This document shows, one piece after another, positions 4,833-27,837 of a stretch of DNA of 35,548 bases. The translations under genes were made by a program, and so were the position numbers. Numbering within the stretch: position 1 is the first letter of the stretch; every line of letters starts with the position of its first letter. Under the pieces are notes generated by a model that saw only the letters and a program-made list of their open reading frames with translations, was not told the DNA's origin and made no database searches. The DNA comes from an uncultured Oscillospiraceae bacterium (GTDB taxonomy: Bacteria > Bacillota > Clostridia > Oscillospirales > Oscillospiraceae): assembly GCA_905236305.1 (NCBI GenBank), contig CAJOPB010000226.1, forward strand, positions 1 to 35,548, read 5' to 3'.

Positions 4833-4878
4833 TTTATATATAAAAACCGCTTCCGATGGAAGCGGTTTTTTATATATT
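4833..4878 (+). terminator. Probable rho-independent terminator (TATATAAAAAACCGCTTCC-type hairpin)
   Basis: aaaaaccgcttccgatggaagcggttttttatata: ACCGCTTCC GAT GGAAGCGGT stem followed by a T-run; symmetric A/T flanks make it potentially bidirectional. Confidence 0.85.
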
Positions 4879-5082: not shown

Positions 5083-8000
5083 TCAGGTCATACTTTTATA
5101 CTTCTCAAACCGTTTCGCCGCGTCCTCGCTGCCAATGGCAAAAAGGCTCTCGGCATTCTCGGGGAAGGTGCGCCGCAGGGCACTGTAGCGGGTTTCGCCG
5201 TCCAGAAACGCCTCATACTCCATGCTGGGCTGCTTGCAGTCCAGGGTAAAGGGATGCTCCTTCCGGGGGTCATAGCGGTAGAGCAGCCAATAGCCGCTGT
5301 CCACCGCACGCTTCATTTCCGCCTGTACCTTTGCCATGCCGCTGCGGATTCCATGAGAAGTGCAGGGAGTATAGGCAATGATGACACTGGGGCCGTCATA
5401 TTCCTCAGCCTCACGCAGCGCCTTGATAAGCTGGGCCGGGTCAGCGCCCATGGCCACCTGGGCAACATAGACATTGCCATAGCTCATCATAATACCGCCC
5501 AGGTCCATTTTACGGCTGCGCTTGCCGCTGGAGGCAAACTGTGCCACCGCACCGATGGGTGTAGCCTTGGAGCTCTGACCGCCGGTGTTGGAATAGACCT
5601 CCGTGTCGATGACAAATACATTGACGTTCTCCCCGCTGGCGATGACATGAGCCAGGCCGCCAAAGCCGATGTCGTAGGCCCACCCGTCGCCGCCGTACAT
5701 CCAGAAGGTCTTTTTCGCCAGCTGATCACGGTGGAGCAGAATATTCTTCGCCTCGTCACTGTGCACGCCATCCAGCGCAGCAATCAGCGCATCAGATGCC
5801 GCACGGGACCCGTCAAAGCTGTTATATGCCTCCAGCCAGTTCTCGCAGGAAGCGCGCAGCGTCCCCTCCGCGTGCTCCATCAGAGCCTCCACCTGGGCCT
5901 TCACGCTCTCCCGCTGCTGCCTGACAGAGAGGAACATGCCCAGACAAAGCTCCGCGTTGTTTTCAAAGAGGGAGTTGGTCCATGCGGGACCAAAGCCGCG
6001 GCGGTTGACGGTGTATGGGATGCCCGGCATGGGTGCCCCCCAGGCCTGAGAACAGCCTGTGCCGTTGGCCCAGTAAACCCGCTCGCCAAAAAGCTGGGTC
6101 ATGAGCTTGGCATAGGGTGTCTCGCCGCAGCCGGCACAGGCGGCGGAAAACTCCACCAGCGGCTGGCAGAACTGACTGCCCTTGATGCTCCACCGGTCAA
6201 ACACCGGTCCCTTGTCGCTGATTGAGAGGGCAAAGCTCCATTTTTTCTTTTTGTCCTCTGTCAGTACAGCGGGAACCATATCCAGCGCCCGGGTAGGGCA
6301 GCTTTCCGCACAGCTGCCGCAGCTGGTACAGTCAAAATCCGAGACCGCCAGCGCAAAATACAGTCCCTTTCCCGCGCCCCGGGAGGGCACTGTCTCAAAG
6401 CCTGCGGGAGCCTGCTCCCGCTCCTCCTCCGAGAGCAGATAGGGCCGGATGACCGCATGGGGACAAACCAGAGAGCAGCGGTTGCACTGGATACACTTGG
6501 AACTGTTCCACTTGGGAACGGCCACAGCGATCCCCCGTTTTTCATAGGCCGTCAGTCCCATGTCGATATTGCCGTCCTCGTAGCCGACAAAGGAGCTGAC
6601 CGGCAGGTCATCCCCCTTCTGGGCGTTGATGGGATAGAGGATGCGGCGCACCACATCCGGCAGATCCTTTCCGTCCACGCTGTCGTCGATGGGACCGCCG
6701 TTGGCCTGTTCAGTCAGGAGCGCAGCCTGCAGGATCTGCACCGCAGCGTTGGGTGTCTCGGGCAGATCGGCCCATGCAGCAGGCACATCCACCTCCGCAG
6801 CCTCCCGGGCTCCCGCCTCAATGGCTGCCACATTCTGGGCGATAACCTCGTCGCCCTTGGCGTAATAGGTTTTTCGGGCTGCCTCCTTCATCCGTTCCAG
6901 CGCGTCCTCCGCCGGGATCAGGCCGGTGACGGCGAAAAACGCCGCCTGAAGCACGGTGTTGGTATGGCTGCCAAGCCCCAGACGCAGAGCAATGTCTGTG
7001 GCGTCGATCGTATAGAAGCGTATTTTTTTCCGCGCCAGTGTCCGCTTTACATCCGCCGGCAGGTGCTCCTCCAGCTCTGACTGCTTCCACTGGCAGTTGA
7101 GCAGGAAGGTGCCGCCGGTTTTCAGTTCACTCACCATGTCGTACTGGCTGAGAAAGCTCTGGTTGTGGCAGGCCACAAACTCCGCCCGCTTCACCAGATA
7201 ACTGCCCTGGATGGGCTCCCGCGAGAAGCGAAGGTTGGACTTGGTGACGCCAAAGGATTTTTTTGCGTCGTACTCAAAATATGCCTGGGCATAGATGCCC
7301 GCCGCTTCGGACAGGATGTGAACCGTGTTTTTGTTGGCGCCAACGGTGCCGTCGCCCCCCAGGCCCCAGAACTTGCACCGAAAGCTCTTCCCGCCGGAGA
7401 CGCCGGAGACATGGGGCGTGGGCAGGGACAGATGGGTTACATCGTCCTGGATGCCGATTGTAAACCCGTTGACCGGGAAGTCTGTGGCAAGATTGTCATA
7501 CACCGCAAGGATCTGGTCCGGGTCCGTGTCCTTGGAGCTGAGACCGTAGCGCCCGCCGATGACCCGCAGGGGCCGGCCGGTCTGCATCACGGCAGTACAG
7601 ACATCCTGATAAAGCGGTTCTCCGGCGCTGCCCATCTCCTTGCAGCGGTCCAGCACCGCCACTCTGCGCACGGTTTCCGGAATTGCCTCCATGAGGCGCT
7701 CCACGGAGAAGGGACGATAGAGGTGTACCTGTACAAAGCCCACCTTTTTCCCATGGGCATTGAGGTAGTCTACCGCCAGCCGGGCCACACCCGAAACACT
7801 GCCCATGGCGATGATAATGTCCGTAGCCTCGGGATGTCCGTAATAGTTAAAGAGGCGATAGTCTCGGCCGGTAAGGCTGCTGATCTTTTGCAGATACTTC
7901 TCCACGATGGCGGGCACCGCGTCATAAAAGCGGTTATTGGCCTCGCGAATCTGGAAATATACGTCAGGATTCTGCACTGTGTTGCGCAGCACCGGATGCT

Positions 8001-8646
8001 CAGGGTTGAGCGCATGGGCGCGGAACTGGGCCAGAGCCTTCCGGTCCAGCATGGCACCCAGCGCCTCCCGGTCGATCATCTCCACCGTTGCCAGCTCATG
8101 GCTGGTGCGGAAGCCGTCAAAAAAGTGCATAAAGGGGACTCTTGCTTCGATTGCGGCCAGATGAGCCACAGCAGCCAGGTCCACCACCTCCTGCACGCTT
8201 CCGGTAGAGAACATGGCAAGGCCGCAGGCACGGCAGTCCATCACGTCACTGTGGTCGCCGAAGATGCTCATGCCGTGGGTGCCCACGGTACGGGCCGCAA
8301 CGTGCATCACAGCGGGCAGACGTTCCCCGGCAATGCGGTGCAGCACGGGGATCATCAGCATCAGTCCCTGACTGGAGGTATAGGTCGTGGCTAGCGCGCC
8401 GGCCTGCAGCGCACCGTGCACTGCTCCGATGGCGCCCGCCTCGCTCTGCATCTCCTGCAGGGTCACGGTCTGACCAAACAGATTCTTTCTGCCCCGGGCG
8501 GACCATACGTCGGTATGCTCTGCCATGGGAGAGGACGGTGTGATGGGATAGATTGCAGCAATCTCCGTAAAGTCATAGGCGATATGAGCGGCAGCCTCGT
8601 TTCCGTCCATCATCACCATCCGGCTATTCTTTTCTGCGTTCGGCAT
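5083..8646 (-). CDS. nifJ: Pyruvate:ferredoxin (flavodoxin)-type 2-oxoacid oxidoreductase, single-chain
   Basis: 1187 aa; MDGNEAAAHIAYDFTEIAAIYPITPSSPMAE, CIQCNRCSLVCPHAVI, CTSCGSCAESCPTRAL, CAGCGETPYAKLMTQLFGER, GGDGWAYDIGFGGLAHV (TPP domain). Confidence 0.97.
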   Translation of the reverse strand: MPNAEKNSRMVMMDGNEAAAHIAYDFTEIAAIYPITPSSPMAEHTDVWSARGRKNLFGQTVTLQEMQSEAGAIGAVHGALQAGALATTYTSSQGLMLMIPVLHRIAGERLPAVMHVAARTVGTHGMSIFGDHSDVMDCRACGLAMFSTGSVQEVVDLAAVAHLAAIEARVPFMHFFDGFRTSHELATVEMIDREALGAMLDRKALAQFRAHALNPEHPVLRNTVQNPDVYFQIREANNRFYDAVPAIVEKYLQKISSLTGRDYRLFNYYGHPEATDIIIAMGSVSGVARLAVDYLNAHGKKVGFVQVHLYRPFSVERLMEAIPETVRRVAVLDRCKEMGSAGEPLYQDVCTAVMQTGRPLRVIGGRYGLSSKDTDPDQILAVYDNLATDFPVNGFTIGIQDDVTHLSLPTPHVSGVSGGKSFRCKFWGLGGDGTVGANKNTVHILSEAAGIYAQAYFEYDAKKSFGVTKSNLRFSREPIQGSYLVKRAEFVACHNQSFLSQYDMVSELKTGGTFLLNCQWKQSELEEHLPADVKRTLARKKIRFYTIDATDIALRLGLGSHTNTVLQAAFFAVTGLIPAEDALERMKEAARKTYYAKGDEVIAQNVAAIEAGAREAAEVDVPAAWADLPETPNAAVQILQAALLTEQANGGPIDDSVDGKDLPDVVRRILYPINAQKGDDLPVSSFVGYEDGNIDMGLTAYEKRGIAVAVPKWNSSKCIQCNRCSLVCPHAVIRPYLLSEEEREQAPAGFETVPSRGAGKGLYFALAVSDFDCTSCGSCAESCPTRALDMVPAVLTEDKKKKWSFALSISDKGPVFDRWSIKGSQFCQPLVEFSAACAGCGETPYAKLMTQLFGERVYWANGTGCSQAWGAPMPGIPYTVNRRGFGPAWTNSLFENNAELCLGMFLSVRQQRESVKAQVEALMEHAEGTLRASCENWLEAYNSFDGSRAASDALIAALDGVHSDEAKNILLHRDQLAKKTFWMYGGDGWAYDIGFGGLAHVIASGENVNVFVIDTEVYSNTGGQSSKATPIGAVAQFASSGKRSRKMDLGGIMMSYGNVYVAQVAMGADPAQLIKALREAEEYDGPSVIIAYTPCTSHGIRSGMAKVQAEMKRAVDSGYWLLYRYDPRKEHPFTLDCKQPSMEYEAFLDGETRYSALRRTFPENAESLFAIGSEDAAKRFEKYKSMT

Positions 8647-8664
8647 GGTATCACCTTTTTATAT

Positions 8665-9735
8665 TCAGACTACCGGCACGATCCAGCCGAATTTGTCCTC
8701 AGACTTGCCCCACTGGATTCCGGTAAGCGCGTCATAGAGGTGTTGGGTGGTAGCGCCAATCCTGCCGCCGTTGATCTCAAACACCTTGTCCCCAATGGCA
8801 AGGCGTCCCACGGGAGACACCACCGCGGCAGTGCCGCAGCCCCAGGCTTCCTCCAGAGTACCGTCCTCGGCGGCCTTTTCCAGCTCCTCCAGGCTGATCC
8901 GGCGCTCCTCCGCAGGTGTTCCCTCGCTGCGCAGCAGCTCCAGAATACTCTTGCGGGTAATGCCCGGCAGAATGGAGCCGTTGAGGACCGGAGTGCAGAC
9001 CTTGCCGGCAATCTTGAACATAATATTCATGCTGCCCACCTCCTCGATATATTTCCGCTCCACGCCGTCAAGCCACAGCACCTGGGCATAGCCCCGCTGC
9101 TCGGCACGGTCGCCGGCCCGGACAGAGGCGCCGTAGTTTCCGCCGCACTTGGCCTCGCCGGTGCCGCCCTTCACAGCGCGGACATCCTCATCCTCGATCA
9201 TAATGTCCACCGGGTTAATGCCGGCCGCATAGTAGCTGCCGGAGGGAGAGAGAATCACAATATAGCGCACATGCTTCGAGCCGTGGACGCCCAGATGCTC
9301 GTCGTCGCCAAACATAAAGGGCCGGATATACAGGCTGGTTCCCTCGCCATGGGGCACCCAATCACTGTCGATCTCCACCAGCTTTTTCAGAGCCTCCAGC
9401 GCGAAATCCGGGTCCAGCTCCGGCAGGCCCATCCGCACCGCAGAGCGGTTGAGGCGCGCAATATTCTCCTGGGGGCGGAACAGTACGATTCTCCCGCTTC
9501 CGGACTGACGATAGGCCTTCAGACCCTCGAAAATCTCAGAACCATAGTGCAGGGTGGTGGAGGCCGGATGGAGGCTCAGGCGGCCAAAGGGCTCAATCTT
9601 CGCATCATGCCAGCCCCGTCCCTGGTGCCATTCCATGGTGAACATGTGATCGGTAAAAACCTTGCCAAAGCCCAGCTTGCTCTCGTCGGCAGGCTTCTCA
9701 GCGGGATGGGGATTGCGGATGATTTCGATTTCCAT
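8665..9735 (-). CDS. ilvE: Branched-chain amino acid aminotransferase
   Basis: 356 aa; MFTMEWHQGRGWHDAKIEPFGRLSLHPASTTLHYGSEIFEGLKAYR, VNPVDI-type fold IV PLP motifs, WLDGVERKYIEEVGSMNIMFKI. Confidence 0.95.
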   Translation of the reverse strand: MEIEIIRNPHPAEKPADESKLGFGKVFTDHMFTMEWHQGRGWHDAKIEPFGRLSLHPASTTLHYGSEIFEGLKAYRQSGSGRIVLFRPQENIARLNRSAVRMGLPELDPDFALEALKKLVEIDSDWVPHGEGTSLYIRPFMFGDDEHLGVHGSKHVRYIVILSPSGSYYAAGINPVDIMIEDEDVRAVKGGTGEAKCGGNYGASVRAGDRAEQRGYAQVLWLDGVERKYIEEVGSMNIMFKIAGKVCTPVLNGSILPGITRKSILELLRSEGTPAEERRISLEELEKAAEDGTLEEAWGCGTAAVVSPVGRLAIGDKVFEINGGRIGATTQHLYDALTGIQWGKSEDKFGWIVPVV

Positions 9736-9874
9736 GGTACATTTATCTCCTTCAACAAAAATTTAATACTCACGGTTACAAAAGCTGCAAATTTCTACTG
9801 ATATTCTTCCGTTGCCTGTTAACAGCTCACAGGCGGGAGAAACCGCGTTTCCTGCCAAAATTGCTTCTCGCTCC

Positions 9875-12358
9875 CTATTGCTTCAGGCCGAGCACTGCAA
9901 CGGCTTCCTCCCGCATTTTGTATTTCAGAATTTTTCCCGCGGCGTTCATGGGGAAGGAATCCACAAAGCGGATGTATTTCGGCACCTTGTGCCTGGCCAG
10001 CCGCCCCACAATAAACTCCCGCATCTCCGGTTCGGTGAGCTGTTCTCCTTCCTTGAGAATAATGCAGGCCATGGCCTCCTCACCGTATTTTTCATCCGGC
10101 ACGCCGATAACCTGGACATCCTGAACCTTGGGGTGGGTATAGATGAATTCCTCGATCTCCTTGGGATAGATATTCTCGCCGCCCCGGATAATCATATCCT
10201 TGAGCCGGCCGGTAATACGGTAATTGCCCTTTTCGTCCTTGCAGGCCAGGTCGCCGGAGTGGAGCCAGCCCTGGGCGTCTATGGTCTCCCGGGTGGCTTC
10301 CGGCATCTTGTAATAGCCCTTCATCTGGTTATAGCCTCTGGCGCAGAATTCGCCGTTGACTCCCGGGGGGACCTCCAGGCCCGTCTCCGGGTCCACAACC
10401 TTGCACTGTACATGGGGAAAGTCATAGCCAACCGTCTCCGTGCGCACATCCAGGGGATCTGTCCAGGCACTCATGGTGTTGCCCGGCGCGGTCTCTGTCT
10501 GGCCGTAAACGCTGACAATGCCGGTCATGTGCATCTCGTCCGGCTGCGCTGCCCGCTTCATCAGCTCCGGCGGGCAGCCGGAGCCTGCCATAATTCCGGT
10601 GCGCATATGGCTGAAATCCGTCCTGCGGTAGTCAGGGTGGTTGAACATGGCGATGAACATGGTGGGCACGCCGTTGAAGCAGGTGATTTTTTCCTGATTG
10701 ATGCAGGCGAGTGAGCTCTTGGCTGAGAAATAGGGCATGGGACACATGGTGGCCCCGTGGGTCATGGAGCTGGTCATACTCAGCACCATGCCGAAGCAGT
10801 GGAACATGGGCACCTGTATCATCATGCGATCAGCGGTACTCAGGCCCATGCGGTCGCCGATGCACTTGCCGTTGTTCACCACGTTGTAATGGGTCAGCAT
10901 CACGCCCTTGGGAAAGCCCGTGGTGCCGGAGGTATATTGCATATTGCATACGTCATCAGGCTTCACCATGGCTGCCAGGCGTGCGGTTTCCTCCGGCGGC
11001 ACGATGTCCGCGCGCAAAAGCGCCTCGTCAAAGGTCAGGCAGCCGCTCTGGCGGAAGCCTACCGTAATCACATTGCGCAGAAACGGAAGACGCTTGCAGT
11101 GGAGCGGCGCCCCTGCCCTGCTGCCGGCGATCTCCGGGCAGAGCTCGTTGATGATGGCGGCATAGTCGCTGTCCAGAGCTCCGTCAATCATCACCAGGGT
11201 GTGGGTATCTGACTGGCGCAGCAGATATTCCGCCTCGTGAATCTTATAGGCAGTGTTCATGGTGACCAAAACGGCGCCGATCCGGCAGCAGGCCCAGAAG
11301 GTGATATACCACGCCGGCACGTTGGTACACCACACCGTAACCTTATAGCCCGGCTTCACGCCCAGACTCACCAGCGCGCGGGCAAAGCGGTCCACATCCT
11401 CCCGGAATTCAGCATAGGTCCGGGTATAATCCAGGGTGGTATATTTGAAGCAGTACTGGTCAGGAAATTCCTCTGCCATACGGTCCAGTACCTGGGAGAA
11501 GGTCAGGTCAATCAGCTCATCCTTCTTCCAGATATACTGCCCTGTGCCGTCGTGATTATAATAGAGGCCCTTCTCCCGGCTGTTGGTCCGGGCAAACCGG
11601 TGCATATAGTTGACAAAATGCGGGAAAATGACCTCCCGGTCGGTCAGCTCCTCCAGCCATTTCGGCTTCCACTCCAGCGAGATGAAGCCCGCATAGTCCA
11701 CACTCTCCAAGGCGCCCATAACCGCGTCCACCGGGAAATTTCCCTCCCCGATGAGCTCAAAGGTCTCTGCGTCCGTACTGTCCCGCATATGGACATGCTT
11801 GACATAGGCACCCAGATTGGTGATGGTGACTGCGGGACTTTCGCCGCAGTCGCGATAGGGGTGGTGGACATCCCAGAGTACGCCGATCTGGTCACAGGCA
11901 AAGTGGTCCAGCAGCTCCCGCAGCCTTGCGGTGCTGGAGAACAGTCCGCAGGTCTTGATCAGCAGCGTCACATCCAGAGCCTCCGCCAGGGGAATCAGCT
12001 TCTCCAGGGCGGCGGTAATGCGCGGCAGGTCGTCCTGAGAGGCCCACGCAGAGCAGTAAGGCGTCCGGAGGTCCGCAGCCAAACGCATGAGCTCCTGCAG
12101 GGAGGCCATAGCCTCGTCGTCCAGCGATGAGAGATCATAGGGGCTGTCAAAGCAGGGGATGGAGAGGCCCTTCTCCCGCATCTCCCGGTAAGTAGAGGCC
12201 ACGGCATAGGCATGAAAGGGACCGCCCCGATCACAAAGCTCCGGCTTATGGAAGACATTATAGACCTCTATGCCGTCAAAGTCCATCTCCCGGGCACTGT
12301 CGATGATCTCCTCCCAGCTCAGGTCCTGCCAGCCGCGGGTGGAAAAGGAAAGCTTCAT
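9875..12358 (-). CDS. Fusion protein: N-terminal xylose isomerase-like/AP2Ec TIM barrel (about aa 1-260) plus C-terminal AMP-binding acyl-CoA synthetase
   Basis: 827 aa in one frame; N-term GIEVYN...WDVHHPYRD...KHVHMRD...ISLEWKPKW; C-term MQYTSGTTGFPKGVMLTHYN, GQTETAPG, HSGDLACKDEKGNYRITGRLKDMIIRGGENIYPKEIE, AAGKILKYKMRE. Confidence 0.92.
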   Translation of the reverse strand: MKLSFSTRGWQDLSWEEIIDSAREMDFDGIEVYNVFHKPELCDRGGPFHAYAVASTYREMREKGLSIPCFDSPYDLSSLDDEAMASLQELMRLAADLRTPYCSAWASQDDLPRITAALEKLIPLAEALDVTLLIKTCGLFSSTARLRELLDHFACDQIGVLWDVHHPYRDCGESPAVTITNLGAYVKHVHMRDSTDAETFELIGEGNFPVDAVMGALESVDYAGFISLEWKPKWLEELTDREVIFPHFVNYMHRFARTNSREKGLYYNHDGTGQYIWKKDELIDLTFSQVLDRMAEEFPDQYCFKYTTLDYTRTYAEFREDVDRFARALVSLGVKPGYKVTVWCTNVPAWYITFWACCRIGAVLVTMNTAYKIHEAEYLLRQSDTHTLVMIDGALDSDYAAIINELCPEIAGSRAGAPLHCKRLPFLRNVITVGFRQSGCLTFDEALLRADIVPPEETARLAAMVKPDDVCNMQYTSGTTGFPKGVMLTHYNVVNNGKCIGDRMGLSTADRMMIQVPMFHCFGMVLSMTSSMTHGATMCPMPYFSAKSSLACINQEKITCFNGVPTMFIAMFNHPDYRRTDFSHMRTGIMAGSGCPPELMKRAAQPDEMHMTGIVSVYGQTETAPGNTMSAWTDPLDVRTETVGYDFPHVQCKVVDPETGLEVPPGVNGEFCARGYNQMKGYYKMPEATRETIDAQGWLHSGDLACKDEKGNYRITGRLKDMIIRGGENIYPKEIEEFIYTHPKVQDVQVIGVPDEKYGEEAMACIILKEGEQLTEPEMREFIVGRLARHKVPKYIRFVDSFPMNAAGKILKYKMREEAVAVLGLKQ

Positions 12359-13776
12359 GTCTCTCCCTCCTCATAGACTATCTTGTTGACCGCGCTGACA
12401 TAGGCGCGGATGGAGGAGCCGATAATATCGGTGCTGATGCCCCGGCCGGAGTAGAGCTTTCCCCCCGACGCACGCAGGCGCACCACCGTCTCACCCATGG
12501 CCTCGCGGCCCTCGGTTACCGCCTGAATCTGAAAATCGTCCAGCTCATAATGGTGGCCGACGATCTGCTCAATCGCCAGAAAGCTTGCGTCGATGGGTCC
12601 GTCTCCCACCGCAAGTCCGTCCAGCATTACCCCACCCTTCTCCATGCGCACATGGCTGGTGGCAGTGATCACGTTGCCGGAATTGATCACATAGCTCTCC
12701 ACCCGATATGTGGGGGGCACCTGCAGCGCGGCGGAGGCCACAATGGCGTCCAATTCCCGGATGCCCACCTGCTCCTTCTTGGATGCAATACGGCCAAAGG
12801 CCTCATACACCTTGACCGCGTCCTCCTCGCTGAGGTCATATCCGATAGAGGCCACAGCCTTGGTCACGGCACTGAGATCGTCATGAATTGTCAGCACCGT
12901 ACCCTCCGCATTGTCCTGCACACCGCTGTCAAACGGTGAGGTCTTGCCGCGCCTTGTCTCACACATGCGGCGGATCTGGGTTACGATACGCTGCAGCTGC
13001 GTGCTTCGCACGGCACATGTGACGCCGCAGTCCTCGCCCCGTACCTTCAGGATGTGCACCAGCTTTTCCAGAGAGACCGTAAAGCTGCCGCAGGCCGCGG
13101 CCTTCACCTCGTCCGCACCGGCCCGCAGCGCCGCCACGGCGCAGGCATCTGCCAGCGAGAGCTCATTGGAGATCAGCACCCCCAGCCGCACCGCCGCGGG
13201 AATATCCTCCCGCGCCCGGGCAACGGAATCATAAAATTCCTCGGGCATCAGCGTTCCGGCGGTATCGCAGATGGTGATGATTCCGGCGCCGGACTCCACG
13301 GCAGCTGCGATGATTTCCCGCAGAAAATCCTTCTCACTGCGACCGGCATCCTCCGCCACAAACTCCACCTCCGGGCAGACGGCCTTTGCCGCCGCCACCA
13401 GAGTCCTCACCCGCTCCAGGAGCTCTGCGCTTTTCATATGGCAGAGATACTCCATCTGCACGGTGCTGACCGGGGCCGCTACCTGCAGCCGGGGATGCAC
13501 CGCCTCCTTCAACGCGTTCCAGGTCAGGTCCACGGTGTCCGCCTCAGTCAGGGACACGGGCACGGCAATGGTGCTGCCTTTGACCGCGGAGGCCAGCGAT
13601 TTGATCAGAAGACTGTCGGTCCGGCGGCTGAGAATGGGCGCCGTTTCAATCACCGGCACCTCCAGCTTATCCAACAGCTTTGCCAGCTCGATTTTTTCCC
13701 GAAAAGAGAGGGCAAAGCCCCCCTCCCCCACGCTCTGCTTCATGGTAATGTCGCTGATGGTTATACTGCGCATCAT
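12355..13776 (-). CDS. 2-isopropylmalate synthase/homocitrate synthase-like protein (HMGL-like barrel plus LeuA allosteric domain), lacking the canonical metal-binding motifs
   Basis: 473 aa; ICDTAGTLMPEEFYDSV barrel motif, C-terminal LeuA-like YVINSGNVITATSHVRM...DGPIDASFLAIEQI...GRGISTDIIGSSIRAYVSAVNKI; overlaps next gene by 4 bp. Confidence 0.8.
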   Translation of the reverse strand: MMRSITISDITMKQSVGEGGFALSFREKIELAKLLDKLEVPVIETAPILSRRTDSLLIKSLASAVKGSTIAVPVSLTEADTVDLTWNALKEAVHPRLQVAAPVSTVQMEYLCHMKSAELLERVRTLVAAAKAVCPEVEFVAEDAGRSEKDFLREIIAAAVESGAGIITICDTAGTLMPEEFYDSVARAREDIPAAVRLGVLISNELSLADACAVAALRAGADEVKAAACGSFTVSLEKLVHILKVRGEDCGVTCAVRSTQLQRIVTQIRRMCETRRGKTSPFDSGVQDNAEGTVLTIHDDLSAVTKAVASIGYDLSEEDAVKVYEAFGRIASKKEQVGIRELDAIVASAALQVPPTYRVESYVINSGNVITATSHVRMEKGGVMLDGLAVGDGPIDASFLAIEQIVGHHYELDDFQIQAVTEGREAMGETVVRLRASGGKLYSGRGISTDIIGSSIRAYVSAVNKIVYEEGET

Positions 13777-13819
13777 GGTTTCTCCTTTCTCCGGCCCGGA
13801 GTTCTGATAGCTGCGGATA

Positions 13820-14158
13820 AAACAGCGGAATACAAAAATCCCCGAAGCCGTATTGAAACAGCTTCAGGGACGAAAAAACAGTCACGTATTTTCCGCGGTA
13901 CCACCCTGCTTCCCTCCCCGGCAGGAGAGGACAACTCTCGGACTCCAACAAGCCCATGGCCGGATAACGGGGCCAACCGAACCGCACTACTGATCCTGCG
14001 CACTGTACATGGTTCATGCTACAAACTGCTGCCGGACGTTGGCACAGCCTGCTCGGGAGTCAGCTGCCAACTGTGTGCGCAGAAGGTCCGGCTCACACCC
14101 TCCGCCGGCTCTCTGAACCTCTCGCCCACGGCATCTCTCCGTCGCCGCATTTAATTAT
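13820..14158 (-). promoter_or_regulatory. T-box leader RNA upstream of the leuA-like operon (probable Leu specifier CUG)
   Basis: Minus strand reads AGAGAGCCGG...GGGTGTGAGCCGG (stem I GA motif), GCAG-CTG-ACTCCCGAGC (specifier region), then AGGGTGGTACCGCGG (T-box sequence, 13893-13907), then terminator. Confidence 0.92.
13835..13869 (-). terminator. T-box expression-platform terminator
   Basis: Minus strand CCCTGAAGC TGTTTCAATACG GCTTCGGGG ATTTTTG. Confidence 0.85.
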
Positions 14159-17489: not shown

Positions 17490-18350
17490 TCAGCGAACCA
17501 TGGCCTTGAGCTGGCGGATGTATGCCGCGTCTGTGCCGCAGCACCCGCCGAGCCAGCGCAGATTGGGAATCTCCAGCACAGGGGCCACCTCTGCGGCAAA
17601 TTGCTCCGCCCCCAAATCATAAACGGTGGTGCCATCGGGAGCGGTGGAAGGCATTCCCGCGTTGGGCTTGAAAAACAGCGGAAGGTCGGTGCAATCGGCA
17701 AAGCGGCGAATCATGGGCAGGGAGAGGTCCGGGCCAAGGGAGCAGTTCATCCCCAGGCCGGCCACCCCCATAGGTGCCAGCAGCTCTGCCACATCCTCCA
17801 CGCTGTTGCCCATCATGGTCCGTCCGGACTTCTCAAAGCTCATGGAGCAGACCACCGGGATCGCCCGGGGAAGCGTCTGGGCGGCCTGGACCCCCACCCG
17901 CATCATCTCCATATCCAGGAAGGTCTCGAAAAAAATCAGCTCCGCTCCGGCGGAGGCGCCGGCAGCCAGCATCTCTGCAAAGATTTCCTCCGCCTCGTCC
18001 TCCTCCAAATCTCCATAAGGTTCCATCAGTACGGAAAGGGGGCCGATGTCCAGCGCGGTCTGTACCCCGGTGCCTGCAAGCGCGTCCCGGGCGATACCCA
18101 CTGCCGCCTCCACCACCTGTGGCACCGTAAAGCCATTCTCCTTTTCCACCGAGAGGCGGTTTGCGCCAAAGGTGTTTGCACAGATGATCTCAGAGCCCGC
18201 CTCCGCATACTCCCGGCAGACCTGCGCCACAATCTCCGGATGGGTGATGTTGTATTTCCACACCGGCTCCCGGTCAAAGCCCTGTTCCGCAGCCAACTGC
18301 CACAGGCGAGTCCCCTGGGCACCGTCCAGAATCGTGATCTTCTTATTCAC
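17490..18350 (-). CDS. Homocysteine S-methyltransferase-domain protein (MetH N-terminal/BHMT-like); likely GTG start at 18350
   Basis: ITILDGAQGTRL, ICANTFGANR, GMNCSLGP and GGCCGTDAAYI (Zn-binding Cys residues); AGGAGAG precedes GTGAATAAGAAG. Confidence 0.85.
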   Translation of the reverse strand: MNKKITILDGAQGTRLWQLAAEQGFDREPVWKYNITHPEIVAQVCREYAEAGSEIICANTFGANRLSVEKENGFTVPQVVEAAVGIARDALAGTGVQTALDIGPLSVLMEPYGDLEEDEAEEIFAEMLAAGASAGAELIFFETFLDMEMMRVGVQAAQTLPRAIPVVCSMSFEKSGRTMMGNSVEDVAELLAPMGVAGLGMNCSLGPDLSLPMIRRFADCTDLPLFFKPNAGMPSTAPDGTTVYDLGAEQFAAEVAPVLEIPNLRWLGGCCGTDAAYIRQLKAMVR

Positions 18351-18381
18351 AATGATCTCTCCTTTTACCGCCCCCCGGGGC

Positions 18382-18909
18382 TTAATATAGTAAGCAGCAG
18401 GTATAGGCAATTTTTTCATCCCCATAGTTATAGGGGACGCCATTGTCCACACAGACCTGGCTGACAAAGAGCCCGCAGGCCTCCATGGAGGGAAAGAGCT
18501 TCTCCGGAAACCGGCAGGGTGCGTCGGGCCAGGTGCATTCCTTGCAGCGGGTACAGGTGCCGGCACCCATCAGCAGAAAATCCACTCCCTCCGCCAGCAG
18601 GCGCTCCGCAAACAGATCCACCTGACGCTTGTTCTCCTCTGCGGCCTCCATCATTGCCTCTATATCGTAGGAGTCCTCCCGCGCACCGATGGTCTGAAGA
18701 AGCAGCCCGCGGCTGTATCGGGAAGCCTTTTCCGCCCAATCCTCAAGGGAACCGCAGGCAGGGGGACAGGACCAGGTCTTGTTATAGCTGCGGCAGCGGT
18801 CGGCGGCGCACATGGAGCGCACCTCCGGCAAAAATTTCAATGTTTTCGGGTCCAGGGGCGCCACGGTGTCAAAGCCGCATTCCCGGGCGGCCTGTGCAAG
18901 ATCAATCAT
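18382..18909 (-). CDS. DUF2284 family putative metal-binding protein (start MIDLAQ)
   Basis: CAADRCRSYNKTWSCPPACG, GAGTCTRCKECTWPDAPCRFPEKLFPSMEACGLFV; GGGAGGA RBS. Confidence 0.85.
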   Translation of the reverse strand: MIDLAQAARECGFDTVAPLDPKTLKFLPEVRSMCAADRCRSYNKTWSCPPACGSLEDWAEKASRYSRGLLLQTIGAREDSYDIEAMMEAAEENKRQVDLFAERLLAEGVDFLLMGAGTCTRCKECTWPDAPCRFPEKLFPSMEACGLFVSQVCVDNGVPYNYGDEKIAYTCCLLY

Positions 18910-20392
18910 AAGCTTCCTCCCATTCATCAAACAGCATGGCCTCTATGTAATTGTCATTGAACAGCGCTGAGGAGCTCAGCTCCTCGTAACGGCAGAGCCG
19001 GTGCAGCTCCTGCAGCGCCTCCCTCCCGGCCGGCGTCAGCGCAAGGGCGGCCCCCTTGCCGGCGCTGTTTCCCACATGACGGGCCTTATTCAGCAAATCC
19101 GGGGGAAGCATTCCGATGGCGCAGGCACTCTGCAGGCGCATATAGGCACCAAAGCCCCCTGCAATCAGGACCTCGTCAATATCCTCGCAGCGCTTGCCGC
19201 TGCGCTCTAACAGTGTCTCAATGCCGGCGCGGACAGCGGCCTTTGCAAGCTGCAGCTTTCGCACGTCCTTTCCCGAGAGCCAGACGCTGTCGGTGATGGA
19301 ATACCGCTCCTGCTCCATGCGCCCCGTCTCATCCAGAATGCCGTTATACAGCAGCGCTGCGGTCAGGTCGATCAGTCCGCTGCCGCAGAGGCTTTTGGCT
19401 TCGGTATCTCCCAGCACGGTGTAGCTGAGATCGGTCTCAACGGCACTGACAGCGCCGTCCCGGGCAGGGGTACCGCACTCTATCTCCGCCCCCTCAAAGG
19501 CCGGTCCCGCGGCAGTGGCACAGCAGAGAAAGCCCTGGCGGTTTCCAAGCCCCATCTCGCCGTTTGTGCCAATGTCAATGAAAAGCACCAGCTTGTCCGC
19601 CGCCGCAGCACCGCTGCTGACCAGGCCTGCCGTAATGTCGCCCCCCACATAACCCGCCACCGCCGGGCAGAGATAGAGCACACAGTCGCTGGCAAAGCAG
19701 TCCATATACTCCGCTGCCGGATGTTCCTGTCCAAAGAGGCTCAGGGGACGGAAGGGCGCAATGCCGATGCTCTCCGGGCTCAGGCCGGCAAACAGGTGCT
19801 CCATCACCGTGTTGCCGGCGATGCTGACATAGCGGATTTTTCCCGGGTCCTCGCAGAGCTGCCCGGCCAGGGCCGCCAGCTGTTCCCGAATGGCCTGGGT
19901 GAGGGCATTCAGGCCCTCCTGAGAACGGGCATGCTGGATGCGGCTGATTACATCGCCCCCCCAAGTGCGCTGGGCATTCATTGCTCCGCGGGCGGCAAGG
20001 CATTTTCCGGTCGTGAGATCATAGAGATACGCGGCCACCGTGGTGGTTCCGATATCCACTGCCAGCCCCAGCCCTTCGCCCGAGGGAGGGATGTCAATCG
20101 CGTCTGTCAAAACCCGCTCGCCGCGGGCGCGGTCCAGACGGATGACCAGATCTCCTGCCGGTCTGGCGCGGCAGGAGAGCACGGTTTCCTCCGCAAAGCA
20201 CAATACCTCACCGTCTCGAAAACGGCAGGGGCCGGTGACCGCAACCCCGCACTGGCCGCAGGTGCCGTTTCCCCCGCAGGGGGCCTCTACCTGCGCCCCC
20301 GCGCCGCGCAGCAGCTCCAAAAGCGTCTGCTGACCGTCGGTCAAAAATTCTTTGCTTTCGCGGCCGTCCTGAATCGTGATTTTGTATTCCAC
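18902..20392 (-). CDS. RACo/RamA-like reductive activator of corrinoid proteins (N-terminal [2Fe-2S] plus ASKHA domain)
   Basis: APCGGNGTCGQCGV, GLAVDIGTTTVAAYLYDL, FIDIGTNGEMGLG, CGSGLIDLTAALL, VLIAGGFGAYM. Confidence 0.92.
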   Translation of the reverse strand: MEYKITIQDGRESKEFLTDGQQTLLELLRGAGAQVEAPCGGNGTCGQCGVAVTGPCRFRDGEVLCFAEETVLSCRARPAGDLVIRLDRARGERVLTDAIDIPPSGEGLGLAVDIGTTTVAAYLYDLTTGKCLAARGAMNAQRTWGGDVISRIQHARSQEGLNALTQAIREQLAALAGQLCEDPGKIRYVSIAGNTVMEHLFAGLSPESIGIAPFRPLSLFGQEHPAAEYMDCFASDCVLYLCPAVAGYVGGDITAGLVSSGAAAADKLVLFIDIGTNGEMGLGNRQGFLCCATAAGPAFEGAEIECGTPARDGAVSAVETDLSYTVLGDTEAKSLCGSGLIDLTAALLYNGILDETGRMEQERYSITDSVWLSGKDVRKLQLAKAAVRAGIETLLERSGKRCEDIDEVLIAGGFGAYMRLQSACAIGMLPPDLLNKARHVGNSAGKGAALALTPAGREALQELHRLCRYEELSSSALFNDNYIEAMLFDEWEEAYD

Positions 20393-21436: not shown

Positions 21437-22564
21437 TCAGGTCTCCGATGCCAGCTCCGGCGCATCCGGCGAAAGGAGCGCGCCCCTGGCCTCCGCGGCC
21501 TCAACCAGGGCGCGATTGGCCTGATTCACAGCGCCGAAGCGCTCCACCGTACAGATCACACCCCGGCAGCGGGCGGAGAGCTCCAGTGCTCTGGTCACGC
21601 CCTCCGCTCCCACCGGCTCAAAGGGTGGGGAGGTAATCAGCTCCCCGGCAAGGGCGCGTGCGATTGGAACATCCGCGTCATTTTCCGGCAGCACCCCGGC
21701 GGCAAAGGGGATGCCCAGGCGCTGCAGCCGCCGGTAGAGCGGTATGCCGCTGCCGCCGCCGCCCACTACAAAGATTTCCGGCCTGCCGGTCACGCGCTCC
21801 GACTCCACGCCGCCCAGAAGCGCGTCATAGCAGCCGTGCTCCACGCCATAGAGCCGGGTAATATAGTCCCCCTGAAAAATTTCCTCCGGGGTTCCAATCC
21901 GGTCCATGCGCCCCGCGCGCACGCAGAGCACCATGTCGGAAAAGCGCTGGGCCAGATCCAGCTCGTGGAGAGAGAGCACCACTGCCAGTGCCTTTTCCCG
22001 TGCCAGCTGCCGCAGCAGGCAGAGAAAATCCAGCTTGTGGCGAATGTCAAGAAAGGAGGTGGGTTCATCCATGACCAGCACCCTGGGCTCCTGACAGATG
22101 GCCCTGGCCAGCAGCACCCGCTGGCGCTGCCCGTCGCTGATTCGATTGAAGTCCAGGCTCTCCAGCTCGGTCACATGCACCAGCTCCATGGCCTCCCGCA
22201 CGACCTGCCGGTCCCGCTGGGAGAGGATGCCAAGCCGGCCGGTGTAGGGATACCGGCCCGTGGATACCACATCGGCACAGGTCATCAGCTCCGGCCTGGG
22301 CCGCGCAGTCAGCACGGCAGCAACGCTTTTTGCCAGCTCCCGCTCCCCCAGCACGGCTACGTCCTTTTCGTCCAGCAGCACCTTGCCGGATACCGGCCGC
22401 AGCTGTCGGATCAGCGTTTTTAATATGGTGGATTTTCCCGCCCCGTTGGGACCGATGAGGGTGGTAATCCGCCCCGGCACCAGTGCCAGCTCCACACCGT
22501 CGATGACCACATGGCCGCTGTAGCCCACACTGAGCGCCGCAGTGCGCAAAATCGGCTCTCTCAT
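21437..22564 (-). CDS. FecCD/BtuCD-family ABC transporter ATP-binding protein with about 110-aa C-terminal extension
   Basis: IGPNGAGKST (Walker A), ISDGQRQRVLLARAI (signature), VLVMDEPTSFLDI (Walker B). Confidence 0.93.
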   Translation of the reverse strand: MREPILRTAALSVGYSGHVVIDGVELALVPGRITTLIGPNGAGKSTILKTLIRQLRPVSGKVLLDEKDVAVLGERELAKSVAAVLTARPRPELMTCADVVSTGRYPYTGRLGILSQRDRQVVREAMELVHVTELESLDFNRISDGQRQRVLLARAICQEPRVLVMDEPTSFLDIRHKLDFLCLLRQLAREKALAVVLSLHELDLAQRFSDMVLCVRAGRMDRIGTPEEIFQGDYITRLYGVEHGCYDALLGGVESERVTGRPEIFVVGGGGSGIPLYRRLQRLGIPFAAGVLPENDADVPIARALAGELITSPPFEPVGAEGVTRALELSARCRGVICTVERFGAVNQANRALVEAAEARGALLSPDAPELASET

Positions 22565-23583
22565 GCCTCCCCCTCCTTGCTCCGCTGCCGCTTCAGCAGC
22601 ATCCAGATCACCACCGGTACGCCGAAGACCGCGGTGACCGAGCTGATGCTCAGCTCTGTGGGGGCAAAGAGTGTGCGGGCAATGAGGTCACAGAGCAGGC
22701 AGAAGACCGCCCCTCCCAGAAAACAGGCCGGAATCATCAAAATTGGCCGGGCAGTGCGAAACAGCGTCTTCATCAGATGCGGAACCGCAATGCCCACAAA
22801 CGAGATGGGGCCGGCAAAGGCGGTGACGCAGGCACTGAGAACACTGGAGAGCAGGATCAGCTCCACCCGAAAGCGGGTGACATTGACGCCCATGTTCCGG
22901 GCATAGCTCTCCCCCAGCTGATAGGCGCCCATGGGCTTGCTGAGCAGAAAAGCCAGCACCAGAGCCGCCAGCACCACCACGGCCTCAATACGCACATCTC
23001 CCCATTCCCGTCCGGAAAAGCTGCCCAGGGACCAGTTGTGGAGGTTGACGATATTGCTGTCAGAGGCGAAGGTCACAACGATGTCCGTAATGGCGGAGCA
23101 AATATAGCCGATCATCACGCCGCAGACGATCAGCAGGGACATACTGCGCAGCCTGGCGGACACCAGCAAAATCGCCCCCATGGACAGCATAGCCCCGAGG
23201 AATGCCGCCAGCACCATGGTCAGGGAGCTGACTGCAAGACCGTGGGCCAGAGAGAAGATCATGGTCAGAGCCACCACCAGCTTGGCACTGGAGGAGATGC
23301 CCAGCACAAAGGGGCCGGCGATGGGATTTGCAAAAAAGGTTTGCAGCAAAAAGCCGGAAACCGACAGCGCTCCGCCCAGCAGCGCCGCAGTCAGCAGTCT
23401 GGGCAGACGGATGCCCCAGATAATGGCGGCGTTATCCCCCTCCCGGTTTAAGAGAATGCGGACCACTTCGCCCAGCTCCAGCCGGGCACTGCCCGCCATG
23501 ACGTTGACCACCAGCAGTACCGCCAGCAGCGCTGCCAGCAGCAGAAAGCAGACCGTGCAGCGCAGTTTTCGTTTCTCATCCAT
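22561..23583 (-). CDS. FecCD/BtuC-family ABC transporter permease
   Basis: IIWGIRLPRLLTAALLGGALSVSGFLLQTFFANPIAGPFVLGISS, AFAGPISFVGIAVPHLMK; overlaps the ATPase by 4 bp. Confidence 0.95.
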   Translation of the reverse strand: MDEKRKLRCTVCFLLLAALLAVLLVVNVMAGSARLELGEVVRILLNREGDNAAIIWGIRLPRLLTAALLGGALSVSGFLLQTFFANPIAGPFVLGISSSAKLVVALTMIFSLAHGLAVSSLTMVLAAFLGAMLSMGAILLVSARLRSMSLLIVCGVMIGYICSAITDIVVTFASDSNIVNLHNWSLGSFSGREWGDVRIEAVVVLAALVLAFLLSKPMGAYQLGESYARNMGVNVTRFRVELILLSSVLSACVTAFAGPISFVGIAVPHLMKTLFRTARPILMIPACFLGGAVFCLLCDLIARTLFAPTELSISSVTAVFGVPVVIWMLLKRQRSKEGEA

Positions 23584-23681
23584 GGTGTGATTCCCTCCAG
23601 CCTATTCCGTTCGGTCAGGGTTTCGGAAGGGCGCTTCCCTTTCTGCGGGGGGTACACCCCGGCGGTGCGGCGCGCCTCCGC

Positions 23682-24851
23682 TTATTTCAGCCTGTGCAGA
23701 AATTCCAGCTGGTCCGGCGCGGCGGCGCCCTGACTCAGCACCGTGTTGAAATCCGCAATCATTCCCGCTGCGGCGGAGCTTTTCTGGAACATGTCGTGCT
23801 CCGTGCACCAGACGTTTCCCCGCTCCACTGCCTTGAAATCCGCCAGCAGGCTGCATTTTTGCAGGAGCGCATCGAGGCTGTTCAGTTCACCGTCGATGGT
23901 GCTGTTATAAATCAGCACATCCGCATCCCTTGCCCCGGCGTAGAATGCCTCCAGCTGCATGTTCATGGTGGACAGCGCGCTGTCCTCCGCACCGGGAAGG
24001 CTGTCAAAGACATAGCTCCCTCCCGCAAGCTCGATCATCCTGGACACGTAGTCGCCGGGCTTTCGCACGACGGCGGCACCGGCAGAGCTGATGTGAAAGA
24101 AGGCCACTGTCTGCCCCGCGGCCGGCGCCGTGTCCAGGGCAGCCAGCTTTTCCTCCTGCTGTCTGAAAAAAGCCTCCGCCTCCGTCTCCCGTCCCAGAAG
24201 CAGGCCATAGAGCCGTATCCACTCCACCCGTCCCAGGGGATGGGGCTCATAGCTGCTGCGCTCCACCAGGACGGGAATGCCCAGGGATTGCAGCTTCTCC
24301 ATAATGTCCGGGCTGTGATAGATCATGGTGCTCTCCACCGCCAGGGAGCATCCCTCTGAAAGCAGCAGCTCAAAGTCCGGAGCGCTGTATTTCCCGGCAT
24401 AGGCCAGATCCAGAGCATCCATGGCCTCCCGCACCTCCCCCAGTCCCCAGTCCTCATAGCTGGTGCTGGTGAAGCCTACCCGGTCCAGCGCATTCAGATG
24501 GAGAAACAGGTCCATGGCTGAGGAGGCAGCCACGTAGATCCGATCCAGCGGCGGGCGCAAAACCACCGTCGTATCCTCCAGACCTGCCGGGGCCTCTCCG
24601 CCCTCCGGCAGCAGGAGAAACCGGTCGGCCCCTGCAATCGTCAGCAGAGTGCTTCCATCGGAAAAGTAATCCACTGAGAACTGCCGGGCGTATTTCAGCT
24701 CCATGCTGCCGGTTCTGGTCCGCACCGCCTCCGTGGCCTCGGAGGGGCTCTCCGCCGCCGGAGCGGCTGTGCCGCAGCCGGCCAGTCCGGCGGCCAGCAG
24801 CGCCAGGAGAAGCAGCGCGGAAAAAACAATCCTGCGGTATTCTTTCATCAT
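23682..24851 (-). CDS. ABC transporter substrate-binding lipoprotein (BtuF/FecB-like)
   Basis: Lipobox LLAAGLAGC; ITIAGADRFLLLP, RIYVAASSAMDLFLHLNALDRVGFTS, GIPVLVERSSYEPHPLGRVEWIRLYGLLLGRE. Confidence 0.88.
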   Translation of the reverse strand: MMKEYRRIVFSALLLLALLAAGLAGCGTAAPAAESPSEATEAVRTRTGSMELKYARQFSVDYFSDGSTLLTIAGADRFLLLPEGGEAPAGLEDTTVVLRPPLDRIYVAASSAMDLFLHLNALDRVGFTSTSYEDWGLGEVREAMDALDLAYAGKYSAPDFELLLSEGCSLAVESTMIYHSPDIMEKLQSLGIPVLVERSSYEPHPLGRVEWIRLYGLLLGRETEAEAFFRQQEEKLAALDTAPAAGQTVAFFHISSAGAAVVRKPGDYVSRMIELAGGSYVFDSLPGAEDSALSTMNMQLEAFYAGARDADVLIYNSTIDGELNSLDALLQKCSLLADFKAVERGNVWCTEHDMFQKSSAAAGMIADFNTVLSQGAAAPDQLEFLHRLK

Positions 24852-25816
24852 TCCACCGGGACGGGCAAAATGCTGCCCCCGTCAAAGGTGAGCGTATATT
24901 CAATCTCGTGGGGCGTGCTCATGGCAGTGGTATCCGCGTAGACGGTGATACTCCGGTCAAAAAACTGCACGGGAATCTCAAAGACAGAATTCCCCTCAGT
25001 GTTGACAGGCAGATAGCGCGCCTCGCCGATACGCATATAGTCATAGTTGGAGCTGCTCCAGACAATTCTGGCCGTGCAGGCGCCGCCCTCTGCCGTCATG
25101 ACAGCGGGGCTCTCCACGCTGGCCCTGCCGCTGCCGCCGGAGAGCGCCACCTCCACAAGATAGCTTCCGTCTGCCAGTCCAAGGCTCTCCGCCGTGGTGA
25201 AAAAGCCCTCCGCAAAGGCCTCTGGCGGCAGAGAATCGGCCCGGAACACCAGAGTACGGTCGTACCAAAGCTCTTTGTTTTTGCTGAAGGCCGCGCAGGC
25301 AACTCCTGCGTCCAGCGCCTCCACGGGGAGGGTGAAGGTGTGGGCGCCCGTCTCTCCCTCCTCAAAGGAGATATATGCCGCCGCCTCTGCAGCCGCGGCC
25401 TGCTCTGCCGTGCCGGGATAGATATAGAGATAGCCCTTGCCGCCCATGACCATTTCGGCAGTCATCTCCCCCTCCGCCACCGTGAGGGTACAGTCCGTGA
25501 TCTGGAACATGGAGGAGCTGGAATCCACCCGAATGCTGTAAGTGCCCTCCCGCAGCTGATCGGCGAAGACGGGCACCATGCCCTCCTCCACCACGTCCTC
25601 CACGGTGGTCATGTCTGCGGCGGTGGCCACCTTGCCTGTTCCCTGGCCCGCGTCAGCCGCAGTCTCAGCGGGGGCAGGAGCTGCGGACGGAACGGCTGCG
25701 GCTGCCGGGGGATCGGTGGTCTGGGCTGCTGCCGGCTGCGGGGCCGAGCCGCCGCAGCCCGCCAGCAGTGACAGCGTAAGCAGCAGAGGCAAAATAATCG
25801 CTTGCATGTTTTTCAT
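24848..25816 (-). CDS. Secreted lipoprotein with two related beta-rich domains, function unknown
   Basis: Lipobox LLAGCGG; LREGTYSIRVDSSSSMFQITDCTLTVAEGEMTAEMVMGGKGYLYIYPG and LADGSYLVEVALSGGSGRASVESPAVMTAEGGACTARIVWSSSNYDYMRIG; each followed by FDRxITVYA/YDRTLVFRA-like strand. Confidence 0.75.
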   Translation of the reverse strand: MKNMQAIILPLLLTLSLLAGCGGSAPQPAAAQTTDPPAAAAVPSAAPAPAETAADAGQGTGKVATAADMTTVEDVVEEGMVPVFADQLREGTYSIRVDSSSSMFQITDCTLTVAEGEMTAEMVMGGKGYLYIYPGTAEQAAAAEAAAYISFEEGETGAHTFTLPVEALDAGVACAAFSKNKELWYDRTLVFRADSLPPEAFAEGFFTTAESLGLADGSYLVEVALSGGSGRASVESPAVMTAEGGACTARIVWSSSNYDYMRIGEARYLPVNTEGNSVFEIPVQFFDRSITVYADTTAMSTPHEIEYTLTFDGGSILPVPVE

Positions 25817-25889
25817 CAGAACGGTTCCTTTCTCTGCGGCAAGCGCCCCGGAGAAGTCCGGGGCGCCGCGTATGAAAAATCAATCAAAT

Positions 25890-27740
25890 TCAGTTTGCGC
25901 TGTCTATCGCAGCTTTGGTATGCTCCACCAAAAGCTGCTGGATAGCCGGGAAGGAGCCCAGGCCCCGGAGCACGGGCACTACCTCATACCCGGCCTCGGT
26001 AAAGATGGTATCCCAGGAGTCCTCCTCACCGCCGGCCATGTCGTTGTTGGCGTGGTCGCCGGCCACAATCATCAGCGGCTCCAAAACCACCCGCTCATAG
26101 CTTCCGGCCTGCACCAGCTCAAGAACGTCCTCCACACTGGGCTCGGCCTCCACGGTGCCGATGAAATAGTTGGTCTTGCCCATGTCCTTCAGAACCGCCT
26201 GCATTTTGGCATAGACGGCGTTGGAATCGGCCTCGGTGCCGTGTCCCATAAATACGATAGCGGTCTTGCCGTCGTCGTATTCAGCGGTGGCCTCGGTAAT
26301 CGCCTTTGCCACGGTGCTGAAGTCGGCGTCGGTGTCCAGAATTGGCTTACCGATAATAATCTTGTCAAAGGCGTCTGCATACTGCGCAATCTCGTCGATG
26401 ACATCATTATACTCAAAGCCGGGCATCAGATGGGTGGGCTGGACAATCAGGGTCTTTACGCCGTTGTCCACTGCCCGGTTCAGGGCTTCTGTGATGTTGT
26501 CGATTTTTTCACCGTCCCGCCGCATGACATGGTCGATGATGATCTGGCTGGTGAAGCCCCGGCGCACGTCATACTCGGGGAATGCCTCGATCATGGCCTT
26601 TTCGATGGCGCCGATGGTCTCGCGGCGGCTGTCGTTGAAGCTGGTGCCGAAGGACACTACCAAAAGCTCGGTCTCACCGATGCCGTCAGCGTTCAGAGGA
26701 TCATCCAGGGAGGCGTCGCCGGTACCGAAGTCCTCGTCGATGGCGTCCTGCACATGGCTGGAAATCTGGAGCTGAATCAGCTCGTTGGAGCCCAGTCCCT
26801 TGAGAACGCACTCCACCTCATAGCCGGCGTTTTCAAAGATGGTTTTCCAGGAATCCTCCTCGTCGCCGGCCATATCGTTGTTGGCATGGTCGCCGGCCAC
26901 AATCATCAACGGCTGCAGCACAACGCGCTTGTAGTCACCCGCGCGCACCTGCTCCAGCACATCCTCTACGCTGGGCTCGGCCTCTACGGTGCCGATGTAA
27001 TAATTTTCCAGCTCGAACTCATCTCTCAGCAGCGTCTGCAGCCTGGCATAGACGCCGTTGGAATCCGCCTCTGTGCCGTGTCCCATGAACACGATGGCCG
27101 TCTCCCCGTCGTCATAGACGATTGTATCAAGCATCACAGCCAGCGCCACGGTCTCGAAATCTGTTTCTCCGTCGAGCAACGGACGGCCGATGCGGATGGA
27201 CTCGAACGCGTCAGCGTAGCCTGCCACCTCCTCCAGTACGTCGTTATACTCAAAGCCAGGCATCAGATGGGTGGGCTGCACCACCAGATTCCTGACGCCG
27301 TTGGCCACAGCACGGTCCAGAGCCTCGGTCAGATTGTCGATCTTCTCTCCGTCCCGGCGCAGCACATGGTCGATGACGATCTGGCTGGTAAAGGCCCGGC
27401 GCACGTCATACTCGGGGAATGCCTTGATCATGGCCTTTTCGATGGCGCCGATGGTTTCGCGGCGGCTGTCATTGAAGCTGGTACCGAAGGACACCATCAA
27501 AAGCTCGTTTTCGCCGATGCCGTCTGCGTTCAGGGGATCGTCCAGCGACGCGTCGCCGGTATCATAGTTCTCGTCGTCCTCCGGTTCCTCCGTGGGGGCA
27601 GGCGTCGGGGCCGGGGTAGCCGCAGGCGCCTCTGTGGCGGCAGGTGCTTCGGTTTGCTGGGGTGCAGCCGTACTGCCGCAGCCGGAGAGCAGCGACAGAA
27701 CAAGCAGCAGAGACAAAACCAGTGAGATTGTCTTTTTCAT
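25890..27740 (-). CDS. Lipoprotein with tandem-duplicated CbiK-like (anaerobic cobalt chelatase/sirohydrochlorin cobaltochelatase) domains; start MKKTISL at 27740
   Basis: 616 aa; lipobox LSLLSGCGS; both halves contain LLxVSFGTSFNDSRRETIGAIEKAM, QPTHLMPGFEYNDV, FMGHGTEADSN, GTVEAEPSVEDVLE, PLMIVAGDHANNDMAG; AGGAGG RBS. Confidence 0.92.
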   Translation of the reverse strand: MKKTISLVLSLLLVLSLLSGCGSTAAPQQTEAPAATEAPAATPAPTPAPTEEPEDDENYDTGDASLDDPLNADGIGENELLMVSFGTSFNDSRRETIGAIEKAMIKAFPEYDVRRAFTSQIVIDHVLRRDGEKIDNLTEALDRAVANGVRNLVVQPTHLMPGFEYNDVLEEVAGYADAFESIRIGRPLLDGETDFETVALAVMLDTIVYDDGETAIVFMGHGTEADSNGVYARLQTLLRDEFELENYYIGTVEAEPSVEDVLEQVRAGDYKRVVLQPLMIVAGDHANNDMAGDEEDSWKTIFENAGYEVECVLKGLGSNELIQLQISSHVQDAIDEDFGTGDASLDDPLNADGIGETELLVVSFGTSFNDSRRETIGAIEKAMIEAFPEYDVRRGFTSQIIIDHVMRRDGEKIDNITEALNRAVDNGVKTLIVQPTHLMPGFEYNDVIDEIAQYADAFDKIIIGKPILDTDADFSTVAKAITEATAEYDDGKTAIVFMGHGTEADSNAVYAKMQAVLKDMGKTNYFIGTVEAEPSVEDVLELVQAGSYERVVLEPLMIVAGDHANNDMAGGEEDSWDTIFTEAGYEVVPVLRGLGSFPAIQQLLVEHTKAAIDSAN

Positions 27741-27837
27741 GTTGTTCCTCCTCGTATGTATCTTTCTCGTATTCAAGTGTGCAAAGCACTCTATGACAGG
27801 AAAATGCCTCCTCAGGCACAGCGCGAAAAATAATAAA

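Follow-up and report, generated by a model that had tools for sequence, protein, structure and literature searches.

A 35,548-nt stretch of DNA from an uncultured Oscillospiraceae bacterium (the window; contig 226 of a 244-contig genome estimated to be 78% complete) carries on its minus strand a T-box leader followed by a leuA-like gene, a gene for a TIM barrel fused to an acyl-CoA ligase, a branched-chain aminotransferase (BCAT) gene, and a nifJ gene. These elements probably constitute a leucine-responsive anabolic operon that rebuilds leucine from isovalerate and whose carriers, for the most part, have no normal leucine branch. The analysis itself shows which genes are present, the type of leader, how far the elements are conserved, which residues are lost, the phylogeny, and the gaps in the pathway, and from these we infer all substrates, the direction of the pathway, and its regulation. 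In the proposed scheme, uncharged tRNA-Leu would stabilize the T-box antiterminator during leucine shortage, as the leader class and its codon imply, and the fusion ligase would convert isovalerate to isovaleryl-CoA. The operon NifJ (here NifJ-B), or in relatives a four-subunit ferredoxin oxidoreductase of the 2-oxoisovalerate type (VOR), would then use CO2 and reduced ferredoxin to form 2-oxoisocaproate, from which BCAT, by its family assignment, would produce leucine. Leucine could in turn feed back on the ligase through the LeuA-like protein.

An earlier note on this DNA had described the T-box and four co-directional genes, with a 4-bp overlap between the first two and 18 bp between ilvE and nifJ; all were located where that note had placed them, and both spacings were reproduced when measured again (Table 1). 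The gap between the ligase and BCAT genes measures 139 bp, and corresponding gaps in close relatives span approximately 40-65 bp. The suggestion that this interval might conceal a separate promoter gained no support from a consensus scan, which gave neither an intrinsic terminator nor a promoter-like site within it.

The window leader aligns to the T-box model RF00230 over its full length and contains the features of the class (Stem I, a specifier, the T-box antiterminator, and a terminator), although its score of 66.3 bits is below the Rfam gathering score of 93. Leaders upstream of the LeuA-like/ligase gene pair in relatives score 84-121 bits, mostly above that value. Machine-read specifiers in the relatives' leaders (n = 46) comprise 21 CUG and 25 CUC codons, and leaders misread by the pattern resolve to one of these two codons by eye or by Rfam alignment: five are CUC on inspection, and two (L163 and L229) were mis-set by the pattern, the leaders L134 and L135 of the same genomes reading CUG. 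The specifier counts cover resolved leaders, approximately 10 other leaders with an antiterminator not being readable by pattern, and every resolved specifier is a leucine codon. With CUG at the corresponding position, the window leader is classed as a leucine-type T-box, in keeping with the mode of control proposed earlier. Two other T-boxes in the same genome (L002 and L004) precede genes for an ABC-type substrate-binding lipoprotein and a TrpB-like protein, as judged from translations only.

Leucine control coincides with a gap in leucine synthesis. We compared 34 genomes containing the LeuA-like/ligase pair with 96 genomes lacking the fusion, and found LeuB in 2 of the former and 62 of the latter (p = 8e-10), or in 2/19 versus 47/67 at a completeness of at least 90% (p = 4e-6); genomes were counted as independent in these tests, and the p values are inflated by shared ancestry. 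Canonical LeuA shows a similar distribution (2/34 versus 59/96). IlvC and IlvD are also depleted (7/34 versus 59/96), a difference that becomes much weaker at a completeness of at least 90% (p = 0.07 and 0.03). In G029, G043, G061, G100, and G123, five genomes with the pair, ilvC and ilvD are present and both leuA and leuB are missing, and thus the gap points to leucine specifically. Carriers of the pair are therefore mostly devoid of the normal leucine branch.

The metal-binding and catalytic site of LeuA is formed by the motif TLRDGEQ and an HxH pair. The corresponding residues of the window protein are TMKQSVG and LIS, and the catalytic aspartate and both metal-binding histidines are absent from all 105 aligned LeuA-like sequences, in which the GERAGN loop has also lost GER by deletion and does not retain its asparagine. 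The TIGR00973 (LeuA) score is approximately 255 bits, where the cut-off is 599. The architecture of 2-isopropylmalate synthase is nonetheless preserved. A predicted model (mean pLDDT 82, pTM 0.59) has a barrel closely matching solved LeuA barrels (TM 0.91 of target, 1.9 Å), and the LeuA regulatory (leucine-binding) domain PF08502 is present (2e-29); the two-domain Mtb LeuA is matched in outline only, making the placement of the domains uncertain. Conservation within the protein is highest in this regulatory domain, where the mean commonest-residue frequency among the 105 relatives is 0.78, versus 0.59 for the barrel. Because the catalytic and metal-binding residues are lost while the LeuA fold is kept, the protein is to be regarded as a pseudoenzyme rather than a synthase; a functional LeuA was rejected, and with it the earlier view of this product as an enzyme of the operon. 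Retention of the leucine domain and constant pairing with the ligase indicate that the protein most likely senses leucine and feedback-regulates the ligase, and it may have retained only the allosteric function of its ancestor. In its fuller form, the proposal is that a 2-isopropylmalate synthase, now catalytically dead, took on a new role as the leucine-sensing regulatory subunit of the TIM-barrel-fused isovalerate-CoA ligase; the reductive route, run by a NifJ or VOR acting on branched chains, would thereby stay under the leucine feedback of the classical pathway. This form is put forward tentatively, its chances being a little short of even.

Conservation of the operon by gene neighborhood had been proposed as a check in the earlier note. 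Among the best 80 relatives of the LeuA-like protein in a named collection, all at least 50% identical, the ligase gene follows the LeuA-like gene in every locus, a recurrence far beyond that expected of a chance neighborhood, which was rejected. The pair is thus the conserved core of the operon. Its partner oxidoreductase varies: of the 80 loci, 30 have VOR nearby, in many cases along with BCAT, and 14 have NifJ-B; no locus has both, and 36, many of them on short contigs, have neither. The TIM-ligase fusion is present in approximately 55 of 151 genomes of the family. Most carriers of the pair are rumen or hindgut Clostridia, at least half of those named being ruminant-gut genomes, and named isolates include Lachnospiraceae bacterium FE2018 and Neobittarella massiliensis. 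Pairs at 52-59% identity occur in bins or genomes labeled Salinivirgaceae, Abditibacteriota, Coriobacteriales, and Synergistaceae (L158, L159, L160, L188, L190, and L209), possibly by horizontal transfer or misbinning. At other loci (L053, L055-L059, L061-L063, and L069), the TIM-ligase fusion has no LeuA-like gene next to it; leuB is present in 6 of 21 such genomes, and these fusions possibly act on another substrate.

The adenylation motifs of the TIM-fused ligase are intact and invariant. Its closest family is PRK12583 (673 bits, cut-off 832), and we assign it a putative role in activating isovalerate. Within the TIM domain (residues 1-270), a putative metal-ligand glutamate that is kept in distant relatives is replaced by lysine (LLIKT) in the window and its nearest relatives; matches of this domain to sequences in the PDB are weak and gave no function. 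Many modules contain a second ligase, fused to XRE and cupin domains, that is most like MbcS (440 bits, cut-off 850) and lies nearby in 40 of the 80 loci. MbcS of Staphylococcus aureus activates 2-methylbutyrate and isobutyrate, and isovalerate poorly (PMC10026030). The likeness to MbcS belongs to this ligase of relatives, whereas the window operon ligase represents another subfamily. In three close relatives (L154, L155, and L263), a separate T-box, with the valine codon GUC as its specifier, precedes the gene for an MbcS-like ligase, which suggests that a valine arm, a candidate isobutyrate-to-valine route, exists beside the leucine arm. No strong match to the XRE-cupin ligase was found in the window genome, at its completeness of 78%.

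BCAT passes its equivalog cut-off (Table 1). In relatives with the four-subunit enzyme, the alpha subunit is VorB by NCBIfam (500-518 bits, cut-off 399). The operon NifJ falls in a clade apart from other NifJ proteins (SH support 1.0), and ten genomes hold a NifJ of this clade or its sister clade together with a housekeeping-type NifJ. NifJ-B is therefore best described as a paralogue distinct from the housekeeping pyruvate:ferredoxin oxidoreductase (PFOR). In D. africanus PFOR, the methyl group of pyruvate is held by Leu121, Ala219, Ile843, Asn996, and Met1202 (PMC5020499). In all 15 sequences of the operon clade and its sister clade, Ala stands at position 843 in place of Ile and Gln at 842 in place of Ser, and Leu121 is replaced by Met or Phe; in the window protein, Met126 and Ala868 occupy the positions of Leu121 and Ile843, and the narrow methyl pocket is not preserved. 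A strict screen of positions invariant in housekeeping NifJ did not flag this substitution, as the position is variable among some of the NifJs used for comparison. These substitutions, the separate clade, and the linkage to BCAT and a leucine T-box distinguish NifJ-B from PFOR. That NifJ-B only provides pyruvate/acetyl-CoA coupling is the less likely reading. Sister-clade NifJ genes lie within VOR operons in three of five cases, one of them with BCAT: at L116:8011-14346, L117:5873-13808, and L118:6092-12223, a sister-clade NifJ-B occurs together with a different four-subunit VOR.

Several observations weigh against the proposed route, beyond the effect of shared ancestry on the p values above. 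Two pair genomes retain leuB and leuA. In several long loci, two of them from cultured or well-assembled carriers (e.g., L195 and L211), the surroundings of the pair contain no VOR and no NifJ-B; in these, the oxidoreductase may be encoded elsewhere in the genome. NifJ-B exceeds the PFOR equivalog cut-off (1624 versus 911 bits for TIGR02176) and shares with PFOR both its architecture and Thr31, Arg114, and Asn996, and valine at position 219 could narrow the pocket. Because Ala843 also occurs in 4 of 26 comparison NifJs, the possibility that loss of Ile843 makes room for a branched chain is suggestive only.

That PFOR score, together with the fold and domains of the LeuA-like protein and the leucine T-box, is what would be expected if the operon served the ordinary leucine route, with a divergent 2-isopropylmalate synthase and a plain PFOR giving acetyl-CoA. 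We regard this as extremely unlikely given the universal loss of the catalytic aspartate and metal-binding histidines and the replacement of NifJ by VOR in relatives; moreover, leuB is absent from 32 and ilvC/ilvD from 27 of the 34 pair genomes, leaving the ordinary route without substrate supply or later steps. The same 27 absences would fit a module in which the ligase, NifJ or VOR, and BCAT also convert isobutyrate and 2-methylbutyrate, leucine being merely the signal, as would the frequent MbcS-like ligase, the three valine T-boxes, and the usually broad specificity of BCAT and VOR. Yet the resolved leaders of the pair carry leucine codons only, the sensor retained is the LeuA leucine domain, and the pair is kept in the five genomes that have ilvC and ilvD without the leucine branch, so that a general branched-chain amino acid module seems unlikely. 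The reversibility of 2-oxoacid:ferredoxin oxidoreductases also allows flux from leucine through 2-oxoisocaproate and isovaleryl-CoA to isovalerate, for fermentation or branched fatty-acid primers, with NifJ or VOR reducing ferredoxin; indeed, a NifJ, as an unpurified protein, has been reported to promote breakdown of branched-chain amino acids to branched acids (PMC12867394). A leucine T-box, which turns genes on in leucine shortage, is nevertheless ill-suited to breakdown, an AMP-forming ligase spends ATP in the acid-to-CoA direction, and leucine synthesis is missing in most carriers, making the oxidative direction very unlikely.

We therefore favor synthesis from acid through acyl-CoA and 2-oxo acid to amino acid because of the leucine control, the missing leucine branch, the presence of VOR or an altered NifJ, BCAT, and the MbcS-like ligase with its valine T-box. 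The reductive branched-acid route of the earlier note is thus favored by comparative evidence, with the LeuA-like protein removed from its list of pathway enzymes.

Rumen bacteria have long been known to use branched-chain volatile acids as growth factors. An isovalerate carboxylation pathway, with the same proposed activation, reductive carboxylation, and transamination in the same habitat, was reported for rumen bacteria in 1962-1966, as cited in PMC7356843. The pathway is known from labeling; what is added here is a candidate set of genes together with control by leucine and a pseudo-LeuA. No genes assigned to the pathway were found in the open-access literature searched, most subscription papers being outside its reach, nor were the candidate gene set, its leucine control, or the pseudo-LeuA found described there. 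Genes for activation, a 2-oxoacid:ferredoxin oxidoreductase, and BCAT occur together in the window operon and in relatives, and the module thus offers a testable, widely conserved candidate gene set for isovalerate-to-leucine carboxylation and a reason why most carriers can do without the leucine branch. It bears on how auxotrophies and cross-feeding are predicted for communities of the rumen and gut, and the annotations "leuA" and "nifJ" are misleading at this operon.

Table 1. Features of the leucine-type T-box operon and its surroundings, in window coordinates
Feature	Coordinates	Strand	Basis
T-box leader RF00230, leucine type	13863..14154	-	66.3 bits, E 3e-14
Specifier codon CUG (Leu)	14061..14063	-	Rfam alignment position; register common to relatives
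Leader terminator hairpin, 14 pairs and T run	13838..13871	-	Terminator scan
LeuA-like pseudoenzyme: barrel without metal/catalytic residues, LeuA regulatory domain	12355..13776	-	Pfam HMGL-like and LeuA_dimer; residue counts, 105 relatives; fold
Xylose-isomerase-like TIM barrel (residues 20-232) fused to AMP-forming acyl-CoA ligase (residues 292-809); putative isovalerate-CoA ligase	9875..12358	-	Pfam; adenylation motifs
Branched-chain aminotransferase (IlvE)	8665..9735	-	NF009897 466 bits, cut-off 307
NifJ-B, PFOR paralogue with altered substrate pocket; putative branched 2-oxoacid synthase	5083..8646	-	TIGR02176 1624 bits; separate clade
Terminator-like palindrome downstream of NifJ, possible operon end	4842..4870	.	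Listed on + strand; stem symmetric

Elsewhere on the minus strand of the window, a cobalamin riboswitch (101 bits, 27944-28198) precedes a gene for a CbiK cobalt chelatase, after which come genes for FecCD, an ABC ATPase, and a binding protein (21437-28198 in all), an arrangement consistent with B12-regulated uptake of a metal or cobamide. A gene for a RACo-type corrinoid-protein reactivase lies near a homocysteine S-methyltransferase gene at 17490-20392, also on the minus strand.

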